From: Planctomycetota bacterium
Lineage (GTDB): Bacteria; Planctomycetota; Planctomycetia; Pirellulales; Pirellulaceae
Length of the DNA stretch: 64,000 nucleotides
Assembly (NCBI GenBank): GCA_963204915.1
Contig: CAUJHS010000113.1
Span: 1 to 64,000, forward strand
Direction of reading: 5' to 3'
Shown: positions 4,218-15,233 of the stretch, piece after piece
How the letters are laid out: every line of letters begins with the position of its first letter
How positions within the stretch are numbered: the stretch's first letter is position 1
Notes under the pieces: model-generated
Seen by the model: the letters and a program-made list of their open reading frames with translations, nothing else
Databases searched by the model: none
What the model was told of the DNA's origin: nothing
Made by a program: the position numbers and the translations under genes

Positions 4218-4994
4218 GTGTGGAAACGCCTGGAACTGGATATTCTGCGACAACCCGACAATGTCACCTGTGGGCCCACGTGCTTGCATGCAGTGTATCG
4301 ATATTACCAGGATGAAATGCCTTTAGATTTGGTAATCCAGGAAACGCCGCAGTTAGAACAAGGGGGCACGCTTGCAGTTCTCTTGGGACGGCACGCCTTG
4401 ATGCGCGGCTATCGAGCGTTGATTTACACCTATAACCTGCAAGTTTTTGATCCCACCTGGTTCTTGCCCGGCGGGCCCGACTTGGTGGAACGTTTGGAAG
4501 CCCAAATGCAGGTCAAAGATTCAGCCCGGTTGCACATGGCCAGTCGAGCTTATATCGACTATCTCCAGGCGGGCGGAAAAATTGTGATGAAGGACCTAAC
4601 GGGTGGACTGATTCGCCGCTACTTGAACCAGTCGACCCCGGTGCTAGTCGGGCTAAGTTCAACGTATTTGTACGGATGTTCTCGCGAAATTGGCCACTCG
4701 TGCGAAGCTGACGACATTCGTGGCACAGCGGCCGGCCATTTCGTCGTTTTGTGTGGTTATGACCGCAAACGTCGTAAAGTGCTCGTCGCAGATCCGTATT
4801 TACCCAATCTTGCCGGATTAGCGCATTATTATGAGGTCACGCTTGAGCGACTCGTGTGCGCCATCATGCTAGGCGTGTTGACGTACGACGCAAACTTACT
4901 GATTATTGAACCAGGACGGGAATCCCAACAACGAATCCAGCGTGTCGTTCCTCAGGAGGATGCCGACGATCATTTGGGTATAGAACTGTCTTGA
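4218..4994 (+). CDS. C39-like cysteine peptidase or amidase
   Basis: A 258-residue soluble protein if the GTG at 4218 is the start. The frame stays open to a TTG at 4149, so the N terminus is uncertain, but homology-like sequence begins at about LELDILRQPDNVTCGP. It carries the papain-like C39 pattern: glutamine Q12, then DNVTCGPTC with catalytic C18, GHFVVLCGYD with H174, and VADPY with D192. There is no ABC-transporter fusion and no signal peptide, so it probably acts in the cytoplasm on a peptide or amide bond. It leads a same-strand series with a RimK-like ligase (144 bases downstream), a GCS2 ligase and a BshC-like protein. Such peptidases recur next to amidoligases, where they are thought to trim or hydrolyse the ligation product; that role here is inferred from context. 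Confidence 0.75.
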   Translation: MWKRLELDILRQPDNVTCGPTCLHAVYRYYQDEMPLDLVIQETPQLEQGGTLAVLLGRHALMRGYRALIYTYNLQVFDPTWFLPGGPDLVERLEAQMQVKDSARLHMASRAYIDYLQAGGKIVMKDLTGGLIRRYLNQSTPVLVGLSSTYLYGCSREIGHSCEADDIRGTAAGHFVVLCGYDRKRRKVLVADPYLPNLAGLAHYYEVTLERLVCAIMLGVLTYDANLLIIEPGRESQQRIQRVVPQEDADDHLGIELS

Positions 4995-5137
4995 TCGAGC
5001 GCACGCCGGAGTTTAGCCGCGAGATACTTTTCCAGCAGGCGTAAGTACGATCAAGCGGCCCGTCGTCGTTATCCCTCATTAAATCCCCCTGTTCAGAAGC
5101 CAGGTGGATAGGAAGTCCGCCTCCGGAGTAAGACGGA

Positions 5138-6607
5138 ATGCCGATATTGATCGTTACGAACAATCCCAAGGATTGGCCCACCCCCATTGACAATGTCGAG
5201 GTCGTCGACGCTCGCGCTTATTTGACGAATCCTGCCTATAGCGAGATGCGCGGCGTCAAGGTCTTCAATCTTTGTCGCTCCTACCGGTACCAGACAACGG
5301 GCTACTACGTTTCTTTGCTAGCGGAGGCGCGCGGACACAAACCGCAGCCGAGTATTACGGCAATTCAAGATCTAAAGACTCAGGCGATCGTTCGGCTCGT
5401 TTCCGACGATCTCGAGGAGCTAATCCAGCAAAGTCTTGCTCCCATTAAATCCGACCGATTCACGCTGAGCATTTATTTTGGTCGCAACTTGGCGAAACGT
5501 TATGAGCGATTGAGTTTGAAGCTTTTCAGTCAATTCCAGGCGCCGTTGCTGCGGGCAAACTTTTCCAAGGAGAAAGATGGGTGGGAGTTGCGGAAACTTG
5601 GCGCGATTGCCGCAAATGAAGTGCCCGACGCCCATTGGCCGTTTGTCGTGCAAGCCGCTTCCGAGCACTTCGCGGGCCGACGTTCCAACGTTCGGCAACG
5701 CTCCCATGCCCGATTCGACCTCGCGATTTTGCACAACCCCGCTGATTCTCAACCGCCTTCGAACGAGAAGGCGCTGAAAAAATTCATTAAGGCGGCCGAG
5801 TCAATGGACATGAGCGCCGAGTTAATTACGCGCGACGACTATGGTCGCATCGGCGAGTTCGATGGTCTCTTCATTCGAGACACAACCTTTGTTAACCGCT
5901 ACACGTATCGCTTTTCCCGGCGCGCGGCAAGCGAAGGTCTGGTCGTCATTGACGATCCTCAATCGATTGTCCGGTGCACCAACAAGGTTTATCTGGCCGA
6001 GTTGCTCGCCCGGCATAAAGTGCCTGCTCCTAAGACACTTGTCGTACAACGCGAGACGGCCGATCTCATCGCACTGGAGCTTGGCTTTCCCTGCGTACTG
6101 AAAAAGCCGGACAGCTCCTTTTCCCAGGGTGTTTCGAAGGTAGAAACTCCCGAAGAATTGAACGCGTGTCTCGGGCGTTTTTTTGAAGAGTCGGATTTAG
6201 TTGTCGCCCAGGAGTTTCTGCCAACATCCTTTGATTGGCGCATTGGCATACTCGACAAACAACCGCTCTATGCGTGCAAATACTACATGGCGCCAAAGCA
6301 CTGGCAAATCATCAAGCAGGACGCGGCGGACCGAAACAGCCGTTATGGAAACTTCGAGACGCTACCTGTCGAACTGGCGCCGCGTCGCGCGGTGGCGGCT
6401 GCCCTAAAAGCTGCGAATCTTGTAGGCGACGGTTTGTATGGCGTTGATGTGAAGCAGTCGAACGGCCATTTTCACGTGATCGAAGTCAACGAAAACCCAA
6501 ACATCGATGCCGGCTGCGAAGATGCGATTCTCAAGGACGAACTATATCGCCGCGTGATGGCGGTGTTCCTACGTCGTATCGAACGCCGTAAAGCTGGAGT
6601 TGCCTAG
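5138..6607 (+). CDS. RimK-like ATP-grasp ligase with RLAN N-terminal domain
   Basis: A 489-residue protein starting at ATG 5138 behind a CGGAGTAAG ribosome site. Residues 1-160 correspond to the RLAN domain that precedes some RimK ligases (KVFNLCRSYRYQTTGYYVSL at 41-60). Residues 190-300 form the pre-ATP-grasp region (FDLAILHN, then DDPQSIVRCTNKVYLAELL). Residues 300-485 are the ATP-grasp fold: GFPCVLKKPDSSFSQGVSKV (317-336) contributes the nucleotide-binding lysines and flexible loop, and VIEVNENPNIDAG (447-459) the metal-binding E and N residues. Enzymes of this type join an amino acid to a carboxylate through an acylphosphate, as RimK does when adding glutamate to ribosomal protein S6. With a GCS2 ligase 110 bases downstream and a peptidase upstream, a role in making or modifying a small peptide is likely; the substrate is unknown. 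It is not canonical RimK, which lacks RLAN. Confidence 0.85.
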   Translation: MPILIVTNNPKDWPTPIDNVEVVDARAYLTNPAYSEMRGVKVFNLCRSYRYQTTGYYVSLLAEARGHKPQPSITAIQDLKTQAIVRLVSDDLEELIQQSLAPIKSDRFTLSIYFGRNLAKRYERLSLKLFSQFQAPLLRANFSKEKDGWELRKLGAIAANEVPDAHWPFVVQAASEHFAGRRSNVRQRSHARFDLAILHNPADSQPPSNEKALKKFIKAAESMDMSAELITRDDYGRIGEFDGLFIRDTTFVNRYTYRFSRRAASEGLVVIDDPQSIVRCTNKVYLAELLARHKVPAPKTLVVQRETADLIALELGFPCVLKKPDSSFSQGVSKVETPEELNACLGRFFEESDLVVAQEFLPTSFDWRIGILDKQPLYACKYYMAPKHWQIIKQDAADRNSRYGNFETLPVELAPRRAVAAALKAANLVGDGLYGVDVKQSNGHFHVIEVNENPNIDAGCEDAILKDELYRRVMAVFLRRIERRKAGVA

Positions 6608-6717
6608 CATGCAGCATCGGTCCCTTGACGACGGCGCTCAGCACACACCAGTCGGTTGACGTTTTTCGTATGCTTGGCTGAACTCGGCTCCATTTCACTT
6701 TTTGACTTGTATCGCAC

Positions 6718-7983
6718 ATGGCGACTGTGGCACCTTTGAGTTTATTTCAAGCCTTTGGCGTTGAACTAGAATATATGATCGTCGACGCGAAGTCGCTTTC
6801 CGTGCGACCGATCGCGGACGAGGTTTTGCGAATTGCGGCGGGCGAGATCGTCAATGAAGTGGAGTGCGGCAACGTTGCGTGGTCGAATGAGCTTGCTCTA
6901 CACGTGATTGAACTAAAGACAAACGGCCCAGCCAATTCTCTTGCGCCGTTACCAGAGTTGTTTCAATCCCAAGTCGCTCGGATTAATGAAATTCTTGCTG
7001 CGTATGACGCGCGGCTTATGCCGACCGCAATGCATCCATGGATGAACCCCGATCGAGAATTGAAACTCTGGCCGCATGATTACAACCCCGTGTACGAGGC
7101 TTACAATCGCATCTTTGATTGTCGCGGCCACGGATGGGCGAACCTGCAAAGCGTGCATTTGAATTTGCCGTTTGCCAATGACGCTGAGTTCGGCCGTCTT
7201 CACGCTGCGATTCGATTGCTGTTGCCGCTTATGCCGGCGTTGGCGGCAAGCTCCCCAGTTGTCGACAGCCGGTTATCGGGCCTGCAAGACACTCGAATGG
7301 AGGTTTACCGTAGGAACTCGGAGCGGATTCCGTCGATTACCGGACGCGTCATACCTGAACCTGTATTCACGCGCCGTGACTATGAGCGAATCATCTTTCA
7401 GCGGATGTACGAAGACATTGCCCCATTCGACCGGGAAAAGACGCTCCAGTTTGAATGGCTCAATTCACGCGGCGCTATCGCTCGTTTTGACCGCAACACT
7501 ATTGAGATTCGTGTGTTGGACGTACAGGAATGTCCTGCGGCCGATGTTGCAATTTGCGCCGCCATCGTAGCGGCGCTCAAGGCGCTTACCGACGAGCGTT
7601 GGACTCGATTGGCGGAGCAACAATCGTTCGCGACGGACTCGCTCGCGGATATATTTCTCTCCACGGTACAAAGCGCTGATCAGGCCGAGATTACCGACCG
7701 GCGTTACATGTCGCAGTTTGGCGTCGGCGAGGATTCAATTTCATCAGGCGAGTTATGGCGTCGGATCTTGGGCGATGCCATGCCCTCTTTCGAATCTTGG
7801 TCGACGTCGCTAGAAACTATTTTGCAACAGGGACCGCTTGCAAGACGCCTTACTCGTGCGATTGGAACGTCGGAGCCGTCTTCGGAAACGCTTGCAAGGG
7901 TATATGAAGAGTTGTGCGGGTGTCTGGCCGAGGGACGCTTATTTCCCACCCTTGCTGTTAAGGCGTCGGCAGGACAAACTTGA
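6718..7983 (+). CDS. GCS2-type glutamate-cysteine ligase family amidoligase
   Basis: A 421-residue protein. The N-terminal FQAFGVELEYMIVD contains the paired glutamates that bind metal in the glutamine-synthetase-like GCS2 fold. NELALHVIELKTNGP and HGWANLQSVHLNLPFAN follow the usual order of active-site strands, and NRIPSITGR-like and TIEIRVLDVQECPAADVAI segments close the fold. Family members condense an amino acid amine with a carboxylate using ATP, classically glutamate with cysteine. It shares direction and close spacing with the RLAN/RimK ligase upstream, and its TGA at 7981-7983 is directly followed by the GTG of the next gene, so the two are surely co-transcribed. The family call is firm. 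True gamma-glutamylcysteine synthesis is not implied, since GCS2 proteins in RimK neighbourhoods probably act on other substrates. Confidence 0.85.
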   Translation: MATVAPLSLFQAFGVELEYMIVDAKSLSVRPIADEVLRIAAGEIVNEVECGNVAWSNELALHVIELKTNGPANSLAPLPELFQSQVARINEILAAYDARLMPTAMHPWMNPDRELKLWPHDYNPVYEAYNRIFDCRGHGWANLQSVHLNLPFANDAEFGRLHAAIRLLLPLMPALAASSPVVDSRLSGLQDTRMEVYRRNSERIPSITGRVIPEPVFTRRDYERIIFQRMYEDIAPFDREKTLQFEWLNSRGAIARFDRNTIEIRVLDVQECPAADVAICAAIVAALKALTDERWTRLAEQQSFATDSLADIFLSTVQSADQAEITDRRYMSQFGVGEDSISSGELWRRILGDAMPSFESWSTSLETILQQGPLARRLTRAIGTSEPSSETLARVYEELCGCLAEGRLFPTLAVKASAGQT

Positions 7984-9645
7984 GTGAACACGCCCCGGGT
8001 TTTGGTCCCACGCATAGTCACGCCTTTTACGCAATCGAATCGGATGATTGAATACCGGCGGCTGCGCGCGCCTGTGCATGATCGTGAGGCGTTTTTCGAC
8101 CCTCCGTGCAGTGTGGCGGACGAAGTTTTCGAGCAAAACATTGCTCGACAACGCGCGACAACCGTGGAGTTTGCAGGACGCCAAATGCGAGAACTCGCTG
8201 CGGAAGCGCGGCGGGAACTCCTGGCCGACGCATTGACATATACGCGCGAATACCGCGACGCTCCCGATTATAGTCCCGATGAGGCGGGACCCGTGTTGCT
8301 CGCCGGTCATCAACCTCAGTTGTTTCATCCTGGCGTGTTATTCAAAAACTTTGCGCTGTCAGCTTTGGGCGAGCGGCTGAACGCGACTGCCGTCAACTTG
8401 GTGATTGACAATGACGCCGCCGGTCCACCTTCGATTCGCGTTCCAACTGGATCTCGCGAGGCACCGCGCGTGGAGGCGATTCCGCTGGATGAGCCGACTT
8501 CGAAAGTTCCCTATGAAGAGCGCGGTGTAGTCGACCGTGAATTGTTTCAAAGGTTTGGATCACACGTTCAGAAGTCGTTGCAACCCTTCGTCCCCAATCC
8601 CCTTGTGACTCGGCTTTGGCCTTACGCCATTGAGGCGCTTAGTCGAAGCGGAAATCTCGGCCATGCTGTCGCCCAGGCGCGCCACCGGCTTGAGGCGGAT
8701 TGGGGCTTGAAGTCGTTAGAGCTTCCTCTAAGCCGCGTATGCCGAACCGCCTCATTCGCTTCCTTCGTTGCGACGGTATTAAGAGAATTATCGCGCTTTG
8801 CGGAGATTCATAATCGCGCCGTTCATGAGTACCGTCGGGTTCACCATTTGCGCAGTCATACGCATCCCGTGCCTGATTTAACCACGGATAGCGACTGGCA
8901 AGAAGCGCCGTTCTGGGTTTGGTCGAGCGAGGAGCCTATTCGGCGTCGACTTTTCGTCCGGCATCCGGCTCCCAATAAAATCGAACTTACGGATCGAGCG
9001 TCGCAACGGCATTGTCTCTCGCTTCCTGCCCACGATGACGGTCAGGCGGTCGCCAACCAATTGCTTCATCTAGCGGAGCGCGGAATCAAATTACGTCCTC
9101 GGGCGTTAATGACGACACTCTACACTCGTTTGTTCCTCGGCGATTTGTTTCTCCATGGCATAGGCGGCGCAAAGTACGATCAGTTGACCGACGTTTTAAT
9201 GAGCCAGTTTTTTGGGGTATCTCCACCCCAGTTTTACGCGGTCACGGCAACTATGCTTTTACCCGTCCAGCGAGCATCCGTTACGAAAGAGGATGTTCGA
9301 CGTATTGAACAACACCTACGTGAACTGCGGTTCCATCCTGAACAGCATGTCGATTCGTCCTTGCCAAACGTTGCAAAGCTTTGTGAAAGTAAACGGCAAT
9401 GGATTTCAAATGATGCGCCGCGCGGCTCGCTGCATGAACGGCATCTCGCAATCCAACAGGTGAATGCTGCTCTTCAACCTTACGTCGAAGGGCAGCGCAC
9501 GCGGCTCGAACACGAGCGACAAGAGTTGAGCGAAATCTTGCGGCGCGACCGCGTGCTTGCCTCGCGTGAGTTTTCATTCTGTCTTTTCCCTGATGATTAT
9601 TTGCCCGCGGCATTACAGGGATTGCTTCGCAATTGTGTCGCTTGA
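7984..9645 (+). CDS. BshC-like protein of unknown substrate
   Basis: A 553-residue protein whose GTG start directly abuts the stop of the GCS2 gene. Length and motif order resemble BshC, the enzyme that adds cysteine in bacillithiol biosynthesis: LLAGHQPQLFHPGVLFKNFA (around 100-120) parallels the TGQQPGLFTGP-type loop of BshC, NLVIDNDAAGPPS (about 138) the following Rossmann strand, GGAKYDQLTDVLMSQFFG (about 400) the GPGE-type segment, and the end (EHERQELSEILRRD) is a predicted coiled coil as in BshC. Similarity is remote, and BshA/BshB partners are absent from the window. As the last gene of a peptidase, RimK, GCS2 series it may perform a third condensation in the same pathway. Membership of the wider BshC superfamily is an inference from these motifs; a cysteine-adding role is a hypothesis. 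Confidence 0.55.
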   Translation: MNTPRVLVPRIVTPFTQSNRMIEYRRLRAPVHDREAFFDPPCSVADEVFEQNIARQRATTVEFAGRQMRELAAEARRELLADALTYTREYRDAPDYSPDEAGPVLLAGHQPQLFHPGVLFKNFALSALGERLNATAVNLVIDNDAAGPPSIRVPTGSREAPRVEAIPLDEPTSKVPYEERGVVDRELFQRFGSHVQKSLQPFVPNPLVTRLWPYAIEALSRSGNLGHAVAQARHRLEADWGLKSLELPLSRVCRTASFASFVATVLRELSRFAEIHNRAVHEYRRVHHLRSHTHPVPDLTTDSDWQEAPFWVWSSEEPIRRRLFVRHPAPNKIELTDRASQRHCLSLPAHDDGQAVANQLLHLAERGIKLRPRALMTTLYTRLFLGDLFLHGIGGAKYDQLTDVLMSQFFGVSPPQFYAVTATMLLPVQRASVTKEDVRRIEQHLRELRFHPEQHVDSSLPNVAKLCESKRQWISNDAPRGSLHERHLAIQQVNAALQPYVEGQRTRLEHERQELSEILRRDRVLASREFSFCLFPDDYLPAALQGLLRNCVA

Positions 9646-11017: not shown

Positions 11018-12391
11018 CTAATTGAGGGACCCGGCATGACGCGGATCTGTGCGTTGAATGATCTCACTCACCCCCGTTTGATTAAATCCCTTATAACCTT
11101 GATCACGCTGAAGAATCTCCAAATGCGATCCGAGTGCGCCCTCGTTTCGGAACTGTTCAGCCTGGTCGCGCGTAATAAATCCTTCCGCCAGCGCAGCCTC
11201 AAGCCGACGAGATTCGACAGTCCATTGTTCACCTTGAGTGAATGCCTGTCGCAAAAACTCGAAATCTGTAAACGGCTTCATGGTCGACACACCTGCCTCG
11301 GCAAGCTGGATGCGAGCGGCATCGAAGTTGAATTGACATTCGAGGTGGTGCATTCCTGCCTGCAAGAACGCTTCGCCGTGTAGTTTGCACCATAAACCGA
11401 CGGTGCCTAACTTTCGCCGTGGTGGTAGGGGTTGGTGGGAAAAATCACCTGCAACTTCGTCCGGGGCCAAATCGACATCCGCGAATACAACAATACGTGT
11501 TCGTGGTTGCTCCATGACCTGAGCGCCCCAACCTGCTTCGTGCCCCGCATAGAACCGCTCGCGACACACCAAACCCAACGCCTCCAAGGCGGCAGTCAAG
11601 CGCCAAAAATGCTCTCGGCTCGAACGATACGTATGATGGTCATGGTTACCCCATCCTAAACCTAACTGTTGCTGCCGCGAGTACTGGATTTGCGCGGCGC
11701 GATTTCGACGCATCCAATACGACCGCTCTGCGGCGAAGAACAGGTCACACGTCCGGTCGACTCCCAGTTCGTTCGTAGCTCCGTGGATCAAATTCATCGC
11801 ATGGGCAAAACCGTCTTCCTCACGGTCGAAGTCTCTTCGTCGCAGGCGAAATGCTTCCTGATGGCGCAAAACGGTTGACGCATCTCCCGACGGTGTTGCG
11901 CGAGGGGTGAATTCGGCGTCCCCGTGACGTTCGACGATCCAAAATTCGACCGCACTCTCCGTGAAGACGTTCGCCATGCGAAGGGGCGCAAGCGGATCGC
12001 CAAAGATCTTTATTCGCTCGTCCAATCGATGAGCCGTCAGGAAGTCGCATATTGATTCCACGTGAATCGTGATACGCCATTCCGGGGACGCGTGCAAAAT
12101 TACCGCTGGAAATAATCCTTCAGGCTGCCGCCACACCTCCTGGTTTGATTGGTTTGAACGTCGATATCCAACAGTCGCCAGACGATTTGCCTGAGAGGCC
12201 GTCTCGGGAATCGTGAAGCTGTCGATCCAGTCGATCAGGCGCGTGCCCGTCGCTTGCAGCAACCGTGCTTCCCATTCGCGCAATCGCGGAGATTCGCCCA
12301 AGCATGCTTGAAGAATTTCTATTACGAGCGCTTCGGCGTCGGGTTGTGGCGTCCACTGGTGTTTGTGGATTTCACTGAAGTTCGTCGCCAT
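11018..12391 (-). CDS. Conserved protein with VOC-like metal-site segment, possible lysine-catabolism dioxygenase
   Basis: A 457-residue soluble protein. The ATG at 12391 follows a GGGAG ribosome site and starts MATNFSEIHKHQW; the longer frame to 12457 lacks such support. It is not a family I can name. The central part reads LGWGNHDHHTYRSSREHFWR, FYAGHEAGWGAQVMEQP, IVVFADVDL and GMHHLECQFNFDAARIQLAE. This spacing of histidines and glutamates over short strands resembles the vicinal-oxygen-chelate (VOC) fold used by non-heme iron dioxygenases, including 2-oxoadipate dioxygenase/decarboxylase of lysine breakdown. It is divergent (126-base gap) from a lysine or saccharopine dehydrogenase followed by ALDH7, which produce 2-aminoadipate. 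A dioxygenase acting on 2-oxoadipate would complete that route. The gene is real; the fold is a moderate inference and the reaction a hypothesis. Confidence 0.6.
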   Translation of the reverse strand: MATNFSEIHKHQWTPQPDAEALVIEILQACLGESPRLREWEARLLQATGTRLIDWIDSFTIPETASQANRLATVGYRRSNQSNQEVWRQPEGLFPAVILHASPEWRITIHVESICDFLTAHRLDERIKIFGDPLAPLRMANVFTESAVEFWIVERHGDAEFTPRATPSGDASTVLRHQEAFRLRRRDFDREEDGFAHAMNLIHGATNELGVDRTCDLFFAAERSYWMRRNRAAQIQYSRQQQLGLGWGNHDHHTYRSSREHFWRLTAALEALGLVCRERFYAGHEAGWGAQVMEQPRTRIVVFADVDLAPDEVAGDFSHQPLPPRRKLGTVGLWCKLHGEAFLQAGMHHLECQFNFDAARIQLAEAGVSTMKPFTDFEFLRQAFTQGEQWTVESRRLEAALAEGFITRDQAEQFRNEGALGSHLEILQRDQGYKGFNQTGVSEIIQRTDPRHAGSLN

Positions 12392-12517
12392 GGTCCCACT
12401 CCCGGCTAAGAAGAAGATTACGCGGACTGAAATGAATCCCGCGATGAGCGGCCGCACTCTATAATTGTATGACGATTTGTCGCATATCGGAATTCTTGTT
12501 CGTGAGAAACCATCCTA

Positions 12518-13642
12518 ATGCACCGCGTGCTCCTACTAGGTAGCGGAAAGATTGGACGGATGATCGCAACACTCCTCCACCAAACAGGCGATTATCACGT
12601 GTGTGTGGGTGATGTGGATGCGACCTCCTTAGCCCGACTCGAGAAGCAGTTAGGCGTCGAAACACAGGTGCTGGACGCAACCGATGCGGGGCAACTCGCA
12701 GCCGCAATGGCGACGCGACACAGTGTCTTGTCCGCGCTAAGCTTTCGTTTTAACCCGAGTGTGGCGCAAGCCGCGCTGGCGTCCGGTTTAAGCTATTTTG
12801 ATTTGACGGAAGACATCGCCACGACCAATATTGTCCGCCAGATTTCCCAGAACGCGGCTCCGGGACAGGTCTTCTTGCCTCAGTGCGGTTTGGCGCCCGG
12901 ATTTATTTCGATTGTTGGTTACCATCTTACGAAACAATTCGATCGGCTCGACCGGGTTCATCTCAGGGTCGGCGCTTTACCTCAATTCCCTTCAAACAAT
13001 CTAAAGTACAATCTCACGTGGTCGACCGACGGATTGATCAACGAGTACTGTAACTCATGTGAAGCGATTCACGAAGGGAAACTCATTCATGTGTTGCCGT
13101 TGGAAGGTCTAGAGCACTTTTCGCTCGATGGCGTGCGTTATGAGGCGTTCAATACGTCCGGAGGATTGGGTTCACTGTGCGAATCCTTGGAAGGCCAAGT
13201 CAACGAACTCAACTATCGTACAATTCGTTATGTCGGACATCGTGACTTAATGCATTTCCTGTTGCGCGAGTTGCGTCTTAGTGAACGGCGCGAATTGCTG
13301 AAGGACATTTTGGAGCACGCGATCCCCATCACCTTTCAAGATGTTGTCGTCGTCTTTTGCGCCGTGACGGGATGGCGGAATGGGCAGTTCGTGCAATTGA
13401 GCGACGCCAGGAAGATCTACATGCGCGCAATTGACGACGAGCCCTGGAGCGCAATTCAGATCACCACGGCATCGGGCATTTGCGCCGTCGTCGATCTGCA
13501 TGTGGCAGGAAAACTACCTTCGCGCGGTTTTGTGCGACAAGAACAAATCGACTTTAACGACTTCATTCAGAATCGTTTTGGTCGCAATTATGAAGGCGAG
13601 GGCGCTTCGCGTTTCAGTAAAATCGCTGCCCCCCAGCCGTGA
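12518..13642 (+). CDS. Saccharopine/lysine 6-dehydrogenase family protein
   Basis: A 374-residue cytoplasmic oxidoreductase. It begins MHRVLLLGSGKIGRMIATLL, a Rossmann GxGxxG nucleotide site, followed by the second strand ending in VGDVD, which suggests NAD binding. ATRHSVLSALSFRFNPSVAQ, SGLSYFDLTEDIATT and FLPQCGLAPGFISIVGYHL are the conserved order of saccharopine dehydrogenase C-terminal type enzymes. Length is close to both saccharopine dehydrogenases and L-lysine 6-dehydrogenases, which yield aminoadipate semialdehyde with or without saccharopine. The ALDH7 gene starts 49 bases downstream and would oxidise that semialdehyde, so these two form the core of a lysine degradation operon. Which of the two substrates is used cannot be decided from sequence. 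No lysine-ketoglutarate reductase is present in the window, which slightly favours the direct lysine dehydrogenase. Confidence 0.75.
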   Translation: MHRVLLLGSGKIGRMIATLLHQTGDYHVCVGDVDATSLARLEKQLGVETQVLDATDAGQLAAAMATRHSVLSALSFRFNPSVAQAALASGLSYFDLTEDIATTNIVRQISQNAAPGQVFLPQCGLAPGFISIVGYHLTKQFDRLDRVHLRVGALPQFPSNNLKYNLTWSTDGLINEYCNSCEAIHEGKLIHVLPLEGLEHFSLDGVRYEAFNTSGGLGSLCESLEGQVNELNYRTIRYVGHRDLMHFLLRELRLSERRELLKDILEHAIPITFQDVVVVFCAVTGWRNGQFVQLSDARKIYMRAIDDEPWSAIQITTASGICAVVDLHVAGKLPSRGFVRQEQIDFNDFIQNRFGRNYEGEGASRFSKIAAPQP

Positions 13643-13678
13643 AAGATCGCTCTCCGGCGCATCACGCGAGTTTCTCAC

Positions 13679-13686
13679 AAAGGAGG
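13679..13686 (+). promoter_or_regulatory. Strong ribosome binding site of the ALDH7 gene
   Basis: AAAGGAGG lies five bases before the ATG at 13692. It fixes the start of the ALDH7 gene, whose reading frame is otherwise open back to 13431 through the end of the dehydrogenase gene. It is the best Shine-Dalgarno match noticed in the window and suggests high translation. Confidence 0.85.
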
Positions 13687-13691
13687 ATGTA

Positions 13692-15233
13692 ATGCACGAC
13701 GCGCTTCATCTCGCTTTAGAACGATTAAATACGCCACGAGCACTCCAGTCGACTGCGATCGATGGACATTGGCGTTCGGGCCAAGGCGTCGAAATCTCGG
13801 TACGTTCGCCAATCGATGGTTGGCGGTTGACGACGTTTCCCTCGGCGACCGCCGCTGATGTGGCTAACGCCGTCGCCAGCGCGGTGAACGCATTCAAAGT
13901 GTGGCGTCAGACGCCCGCGCCGGTGCGAGGCGAATTCGTTCGCCGATTGGGCCAAAAATTGCGTCAACATAAGGAAGATCTCGCGTGCATCGTCACGTGG
14001 GAGACTGGAAAGATTGTGCAAGAAGCACTAGGTGAAGTTCAAGAGATGATCGATATTTGCGATTTCGCCGTCGGATTGAGCCGTCAACTTTATGGCAAAA
14101 CGATTGCCTCGGAGAGGCCGCGGCATCGATTGATGGAGCAGTGGCATCCGTTGGGCCCGATTGGCGTGATTACGGCGTTCAATTTCCCGGTCGCGGTTTG
14201 GGCGTGGAACGCCGCCATTGCACTTGTATGCGGCGACACGGTCGTTTGGAAACCTTCTGAGAAAACGTCGCTGTGCGCCATTGCGTGCCAAACACTTGTC
14301 GACCGAGTGGTGGACGAGATGAGTGAAGTTCCTCCCGGTCTCTCCAATTTGGTGATCGGGGAAGGTCCTGTAGTTGGGCGGGCCATTGCCGAATCTTGCG
14401 ACTTACCTCTCATCTCGGCGACTGGCTCGATACCTATGGGACGCGACGTCGCCCAGCGCGTCGCAACTCGTTTTGGTCGGTCGCTGTTGGAGCTTGGAGG
14501 GAATAATGCGGCAGTCGTAGCGCCCAGCGCCGATCTTGAACTTGCCATTCGCTCGGTTGTCTTTGCGGCGGTGGGCACTTGCGGTCAGCGTTGTACTACG
14601 CTTCGCCGCTTGATCGTTCATGATTCAATCTACGATCGCATGCGCGATCGCTTGCTCGAAACGTACGCCAAACTGCCAATTGGCGATCCGCGTGATCCCC
14701 AAACCCTGGTCGGGCCGCTAATTGACCTCGCGGCGGTGGAGAAGATGCAAGACGCACTCCTTCAAGCGAAACAACAGAGCGGATTTGTCCACGGGGGCAA
14801 TATTCTGAGGAATCACGTGCCGGAAGGCGGCGTGTATGTTGAGCCCGCAATCGTGGAAATAGCACACGACCAGGCCGTTGTACGCGAGGAAACATTTGCA
14901 CCCATTCTGTACGTATTTCGGTATGAAACCCTTGCCGACGCCATTGCCATAAATAACGGCGTTCCACAGGGGTTGGCTTCGTCGATCTTTACCAGCGATG
15001 TCCGCGAAGCGGAGATTTTCTGTTCGTCCGAGGGCAGCGACTGCGGAATTGCGAATGTGAATATCGGAACAAGCGGAGCTGAAATCGGCGGCGCGTTTGG
15101 CGGTGAGAAGGAGACCGGCGGCGGACGCGAATCGGGCTCCGATGCGTGGAAGTTTTACATGCGGCGTATGACCAGCACGGTCAACTATGGCGACACGCTT
15201 CCTCTGGCACAGGGCATCAAGTTCCACGTGTGA
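13692..15233 (+). CDS. ALDH7-type alpha-aminoadipic semialdehyde dehydrogenase
   Basis: A 513-residue aldehyde dehydrogenase. Key sites are present: TAFNFPVAVWAWNAA with the substrate-site asparagine (about 164), KPSEKTS for NAD, LELGGNN with general base E267, and GTCGQRCTT with nucleophile C301. The C terminus (GGAFGGEKETGGGRESGSDA, then WKFYMRR and NYGDTLPLAQGIKF) is the signature of the ALDH7 (antiquitin) subfamily. This separates it from betaine or succinate-semialdehyde enzymes. It oxidises 2-aminoadipate 6-semialdehyde to 2-aminoadipate in lysine degradation. It follows the saccharopine/lysine dehydrogenase by 49 bases on the same strand, giving two consecutive pathway steps. The start is fixed by the AAAGGAGG site. 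The subfamily call is very secure. Confidence 0.93.
   Translation: MHDALHLALERLNTPRALQSTAIDGHWRSGQGVEISVRSPIDGWRLTTFPSATAADVANAVASAVNAFKVWRQTPAPVRGEFVRRLGQKLRQHKEDLACIVTWETGKIVQEALGEVQEMIDICDFAVGLSRQLYGKTIASERPRHRLMEQWHPLGPIGVITAFNFPVAVWAWNAAIALVCGDTVVWKPSEKTSLCAIACQTLVDRVVDEMSEVPPGLSNLVIGEGPVVGRAIAESCDLPLISATGSIPMGRDVAQRVATRFGRSLLELGGNNAAVVAPSADLELAIRSVVFAAVGTCGQRCTTLRRLIVHDSIYDRMRDRLLETYAKLPIGDPRDPQTLVGPLIDLAAVEKMQDALLQAKQQSGFVHGGNILRNHVPEGGVYVEPAIVEIAHDQAVVREETFAPILYVFRYETLADAIAINNGVPQGLASSIFTSDVREAEIFCSSEGSDCGIANVNIGTSGAEIGGAFGGEKETGGGRESGSDAWKFYMRRMTSTVNYGDTLPLAQGIKFHV

Follow-up and report, generated by a model that had tools for sequence, protein, structure and literature searches.

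Two probable units in a four-gene planctomycete locus: a conserved amidoligase module and a BshC-like gene

Four same-strand genes that follow one another on a planctomycete contig very probably form two functionally separate units lying side by side. The first (4218-7983) would be an amidoligase module made up of a C39-like peptidase, an RLAN-RimK protein and a GCS2 ligase, with its usual fourth member, an N-formylglutamate-amidohydrolase-like gene (FGase, PF05013), on another contig. The second (7984-9645) would be a gene of predicted BshC fold, ancestrally the second gene of an operon with a family-2 glycosyltransferase (GT2) and only later located downstream of GCS2. A preliminary description of the locus had proposed one pathway of four genes; this is replaced here by two leads, the pair of BshC-fold protein and GT2 in the order and class of the source organism, and canonical pairs of BshA and BshC in roughly half of the phylum genomes sampled.

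The locus and its setting

The window, that is the whole stretch of DNA analysed, comprises bases 1-64000 of contig C113 from a planctomycete genome of 9.24 Mb. Most of its relatives among named records belong to Pirellulales. The four open reading frames are as follows.

4218..4994, + strand: C39/papain-like cysteine hydrolase, first gene of the module (Pfam Peptidase_C39_2, E 6e-10 to 8e-10)
5138..6607, + strand: RLAN-RimK, an RLAN domain with a RimK-like ATP-grasp ligase (Pfam RLAN E 2e-49, RimK 2e-8)
6718..7983, + strand: GCS2 carboxylate-amine ligase (Pfam GCS2 E 2e-30)
7984..9645 (likely start ATG 8044), + strand: single-copy protein of predicted BshC fold (AlphaFold model, structure match 4wbd)

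The longest version of the C39 frame begins at TTG 4149, and a start near 4218 is favoured by relatives; no signal peptide is apparent in this hydrolase. For the last gene, a start at GTG 7984 would leave no gap after GCS2 and a start at ATG 8044 (MIEYRRLRAP) a gap of about 60 bp. Most relatives align only from around residue 21, and the ATG is a likely start; the direct abutment of the last two genes reported previously holds for the GTG start and not for the ATG. The gaps between the four genes are thus 143, 110 and 0-60 bp. Promoter and terminator signals at the locus showed no excess over shuffled sequence. In the window strain this spacing permits co-transcription of the four genes, which may have a strain-specific functional link. 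The gene order in the window is real; the place of the BshC-like gene within that order is not conserved.

Further along the window, a saccharopine-dehydrogenase-like gene is followed by an L-piperidine-6-carboxylate dehydrogenase (12518-15233; NF050084 over cut-off), a pair whose sequences indicate a probable role in lysine catabolism. Beside them, on the minus strand (11018-12457), lies a 479-aa protein with no Pfam or NCBIfam match and a single-sequence AlphaFold model of pLDDT 35; our guess is a divergent 2-oxoadipate-type enzyme.

The amidoligase module and its usual fourth gene

Searches against Pfam confirmed the domain assignments first proposed for the C39-like, RLAN-RimK and GCS2 proteins, whose genes constitute a collinear module conserved across Planctomycetota. 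The recurrence of such RimK/GCS2/peptidase neighbourhoods, also part of the preliminary description, is borne out by 28 loci outside the window in which RLAN and GCS2 are adjacent. A C39 gene lies immediately upstream in 23 of these, in the same order as in the window stretch 4218-7983, and FGase lies downstream in 18. The BshC-like gene occurs in none of the 28. RLAN-RimK orthologues in other Pirellulales are 55-87% identical.

Neighbour clustering and family searches identify FGase as the normal occupant of the slot after GCS2. Loci of this kind include those of distant planctomycete families, and FGase is frequent in them, not universal. In the window genome the slot is taken by the BshC-like gene, and FGase is found at C94:113850-114461. 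A GNAT-containing gene is present near RLAN-GCS2 in some of the 28 loci. In four genomes (G196, G201, G226, G254) RLAN domains lie within open frames of about 1000 aa and are possibly fused to another domain. A second type of locus, recurring in several Pirellulales, couples a divergent ATP-grasp protein of GshB-like type to a further FGase-like gene (G020:C1:1835077-1838885, G014:C15, G045:C2, G025:C172, G068:C27).

Enzymes of the GCS2 and RLAN-RimK families form amide bonds via acyl-phosphates. In the first unit, GCS2 and the ATP-grasp enzyme would activate carboxylates in this way and join amino acids, probably of glutamate type, into a small peptide or amide, which FGase and the C39 enzyme would hydrolyse or mature. 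The identity of the usual fourth partner as an FGase-like amidohydrolase constrains what the module could produce.

The BshC-like protein: predicted fold, distribution and partner

The last reading frame matched nothing in Pfam or NCBIfam at E 0.1, including PF10079, PF24850 and TIGR03998. An AlphaFold model built from an alignment of 34 relatives (pLDDT 94.7, pTM 0.90) matches 4wbd, the BshC of B. subtilis, best among PDB entries (Foldseek probability 1.00, E 1.5e-13, 12% identity). VIA-align 2 places the two structures together with Z 27.3 over 450 residues, spanning residues 5 to 533, in agreement with the BshC fold of a Rossmann core, connecting peptides and a C-terminal coiled coil. Class I LysRS (Z 20.8 over 281 residues at 3.3 A) and MshC (Z 10.1-10.6) ranked behind it in the same comparison. 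Against canonical BshC of planctomycetes, the profile-profile score is low (hhalign probability 17%, E 0.0015), yet the same motifs are paired: GHQP..HPG..K with GQQ..G..K, DxD with DHD, and GIGGxxYD with VGGPxEIxY. An hmmsearch against the PDB, with the family alignment as query, gave no match, so the relation to BshC rests on structure and motif correspondence. The earlier recognition of the last protein as BshC-like is thus upheld by the structural comparison, and the HMM-HMM comparison contributes the motif pairing and a weak score. By its predicted structure the fourth protein has the BshC fold, and its family is not described by any Pfam or NCBIfam model.

All 79 related genomes carry the gene, almost always as a single copy. 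Of the same 79, about 23 have strong matches to RLAN-RimK and GCS2; where these share a contig with the BshC-like gene, they are separated from it by tens of kilobases or more. Loci were retrieved from named genomes (n=42, up to 10 kb either side) and from the wider phylum (n=32). Within these stretches no C39, RLAN, GCS2 or FGase gene lies near the BshC-like gene in any locus of either set. Together with its absence from the 28 module loci, this shows that linkage between the BshC-like gene and the ligases is not conserved, an outcome which the preliminary description had itself named as refuting, and the four-gene pathway is thereby refuted as a conserved system. Since the gene is not linked to the ligases, the cysteine-containing or thiol product suggested for them in the preliminary description loses its support.

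The conserved partner is instead a GT2 gene (about 255 aa, PF00535, PpgS/DPM1-like). In all 41 named loci with enough flanking sequence it has the same orientation and ends immediately before the BshC-like gene, and the two often overlap by 4 bp. The pair occurs in 18 of the 32 phylum loci (it is missing in 14) and reaches branches with only 23-27% identity. Other recurrent neighbours are GNAT/SCP2 in 11 loci and NIF3 in 8. A bacillithiol-like operon would be expected to include a PIG-L deacetylase, but none was recognised among the conserved neighbours. In some deep branches (L145-L150, L155) the GT2 partner has been lost, and the genes found beside the BshC-like gene instead read from sequence as guaA (GMP synthase) or purD-like.

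The window genome carries its GT2 orthologue (67%) on a different contig, at C60:193994-194731, and the position of the BshC-like gene after GCS2 therefore looks like a lineage-specific rearrangement. A strong GT2 match was obtained in the remaining 18 genomes searched and a weak, paralogue-level match only in G001, the sole congener compared, whose assembly is 72% complete and fragmented. Upstream of its BshC-like gene are a gene resembling the PEP-synthase-regulatory type and a small protein, not GCS2; its GCS2 gene is at a contig end, with the downstream region out of view. The genus of the window thus seems to have lost the ancestral linkage of GT2 and the BshC-like gene.

Thiol genes, candidate chemistries and known systems

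The distribution of known thiol genes was assessed in one set of 199 phylum genomes. The BshC-like family is present in 33 of these, canonical BshC (PF10079) in 106 and BshA over cut-off in 102, the last including 100 of the 106 genomes with canonical BshC. None of the 33 genomes with the BshC-like family has canonical BshC or BshA. For the mutual exclusion of the two BshC types Fisher's test gives p 3e-13, a significance exaggerated by common descent, as the two types divide along deep clades. In the window genome and 19 relatives PF10079 is absent, and glutathione synthase over cut-off was found in none of 79 Pirellulales relatives. A survey of 2018 placed Planctomycetes among the major lineages without a documented or predicted low-molecular-weight redox thiol (PMC6282198). 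Canonical BshA and BshC over cut-off occur in about half of the 199 genomes, and bacillithiol synthesis is therefore predicted there. The two genes are often close together, for example in G089:C98; the 2018 survey listed none (PMC6282198).

In the second unit, the Rossmann core of the BshC-like protein would, like that of BshC and MshC, activate an amino acid, which would then be attached to the amine group of a conjugated sugar whose synthesis involves GT2. Cysteine is the leading candidate, although a cysteine or thiol chemistry is proposed only tentatively, and an aminoacyl-sugar or lipid product is plausible and about as likely.

Two proposals for the pair are compatible with two separate units. 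One possibility, at modest odds, is that the pair transfers some amino acid, not cysteine, onto a lipid-linked sugar or a different amine, the BshC-like protein acting as a tRNA-synthetase-like ligase of the envelope. The close match of its core to class I LysRS and the PpgS/DPM1-like character of GT2 are consistent with this, although the whole-length match, C-terminal part included, is best to BshC. A similarly speculative proposal is that Planctomycetia owe their missing low-molecular-weight thiol to the pair: GT2 and other enzymes would provide a sugar conjugate to which the BshC-like protein adds cysteine, taking over the role of BshA and BshC. The exclusion of canonical BshA and BshC, the lack of any thiol documented or predicted for planctomycetes in the 2018 survey, the lack of canonical glutathione synthase over cut-off, and the universality of the gene in Pirellulales relatives all point in this direction, and a glycosyltransferase partner parallels the BshA/BshC and MshA/MshC pairs. 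However, the exclusivity tracks deep clades and may reflect lineage history only, GT2 resembles polyprenyl-phosphate sugar transferases and not the GT4 enzymes BshA and MshA, and the recurrent neighbours include no deacetylase. A single new pathway, in which GCS2 and RLAN-RimK make a glutamyl peptide, the BshC-like protein adds cysteine and C39 trims the product, agrees with the common strand, the short gaps and the BshC fold but is very improbable, given the lack of conserved linkage across 74 BshC-like and 28 module loci, the universality of the BshC-like gene even where the ligases are absent, and FGase as the actual fourth gene of the module.

Under the preferred interpretation of two units, the part that deserves specialist attention is the BshC-fold family, which is near-universal, has GT2 as its partner and occurs in lineages without known thiol genes.

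Neighbourhoods of RLAN-RimK, GCS2 and peptidase genes were reportedly described by Iyer, Abhiman, Burroughs and Aravind in 2009; no open papers on RLAN or PF14401 were found in the literature. The window resembles these neighbourhoods in the collinearity of C39, RLAN-RimK and GCS2, to which relatives often add FGase as a fourth gene, and differs from them in having FGase elsewhere and the BshC-like gene in its slot. With MshC and the class I aminoacyl-tRNA synthetases (CysRS, LysRS-I) the BshC-like protein shares the class I Rossmann catalytic core, whereas structural coverage is below that obtained with BshC and the tRNA-binding context is lacking. The activity of BshC itself had, according to a review of 2015, never been shown in vitro (PMC4360819). 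Compared with this bacillithiol synthase (4wbd, PF10079/PF24850, TIGR03998), the family is distinguished by 9-12% identity, by the lack of a match to any of the three profiles, by its own conserved histidines (His 89, 95 and 371, numbered from ATG 8044) and by a GT2 partner in place of BshA, while the fold over the whole length and the spacing of the GxQ...K, DxD and GG(x)xxY motifs are alike in both.
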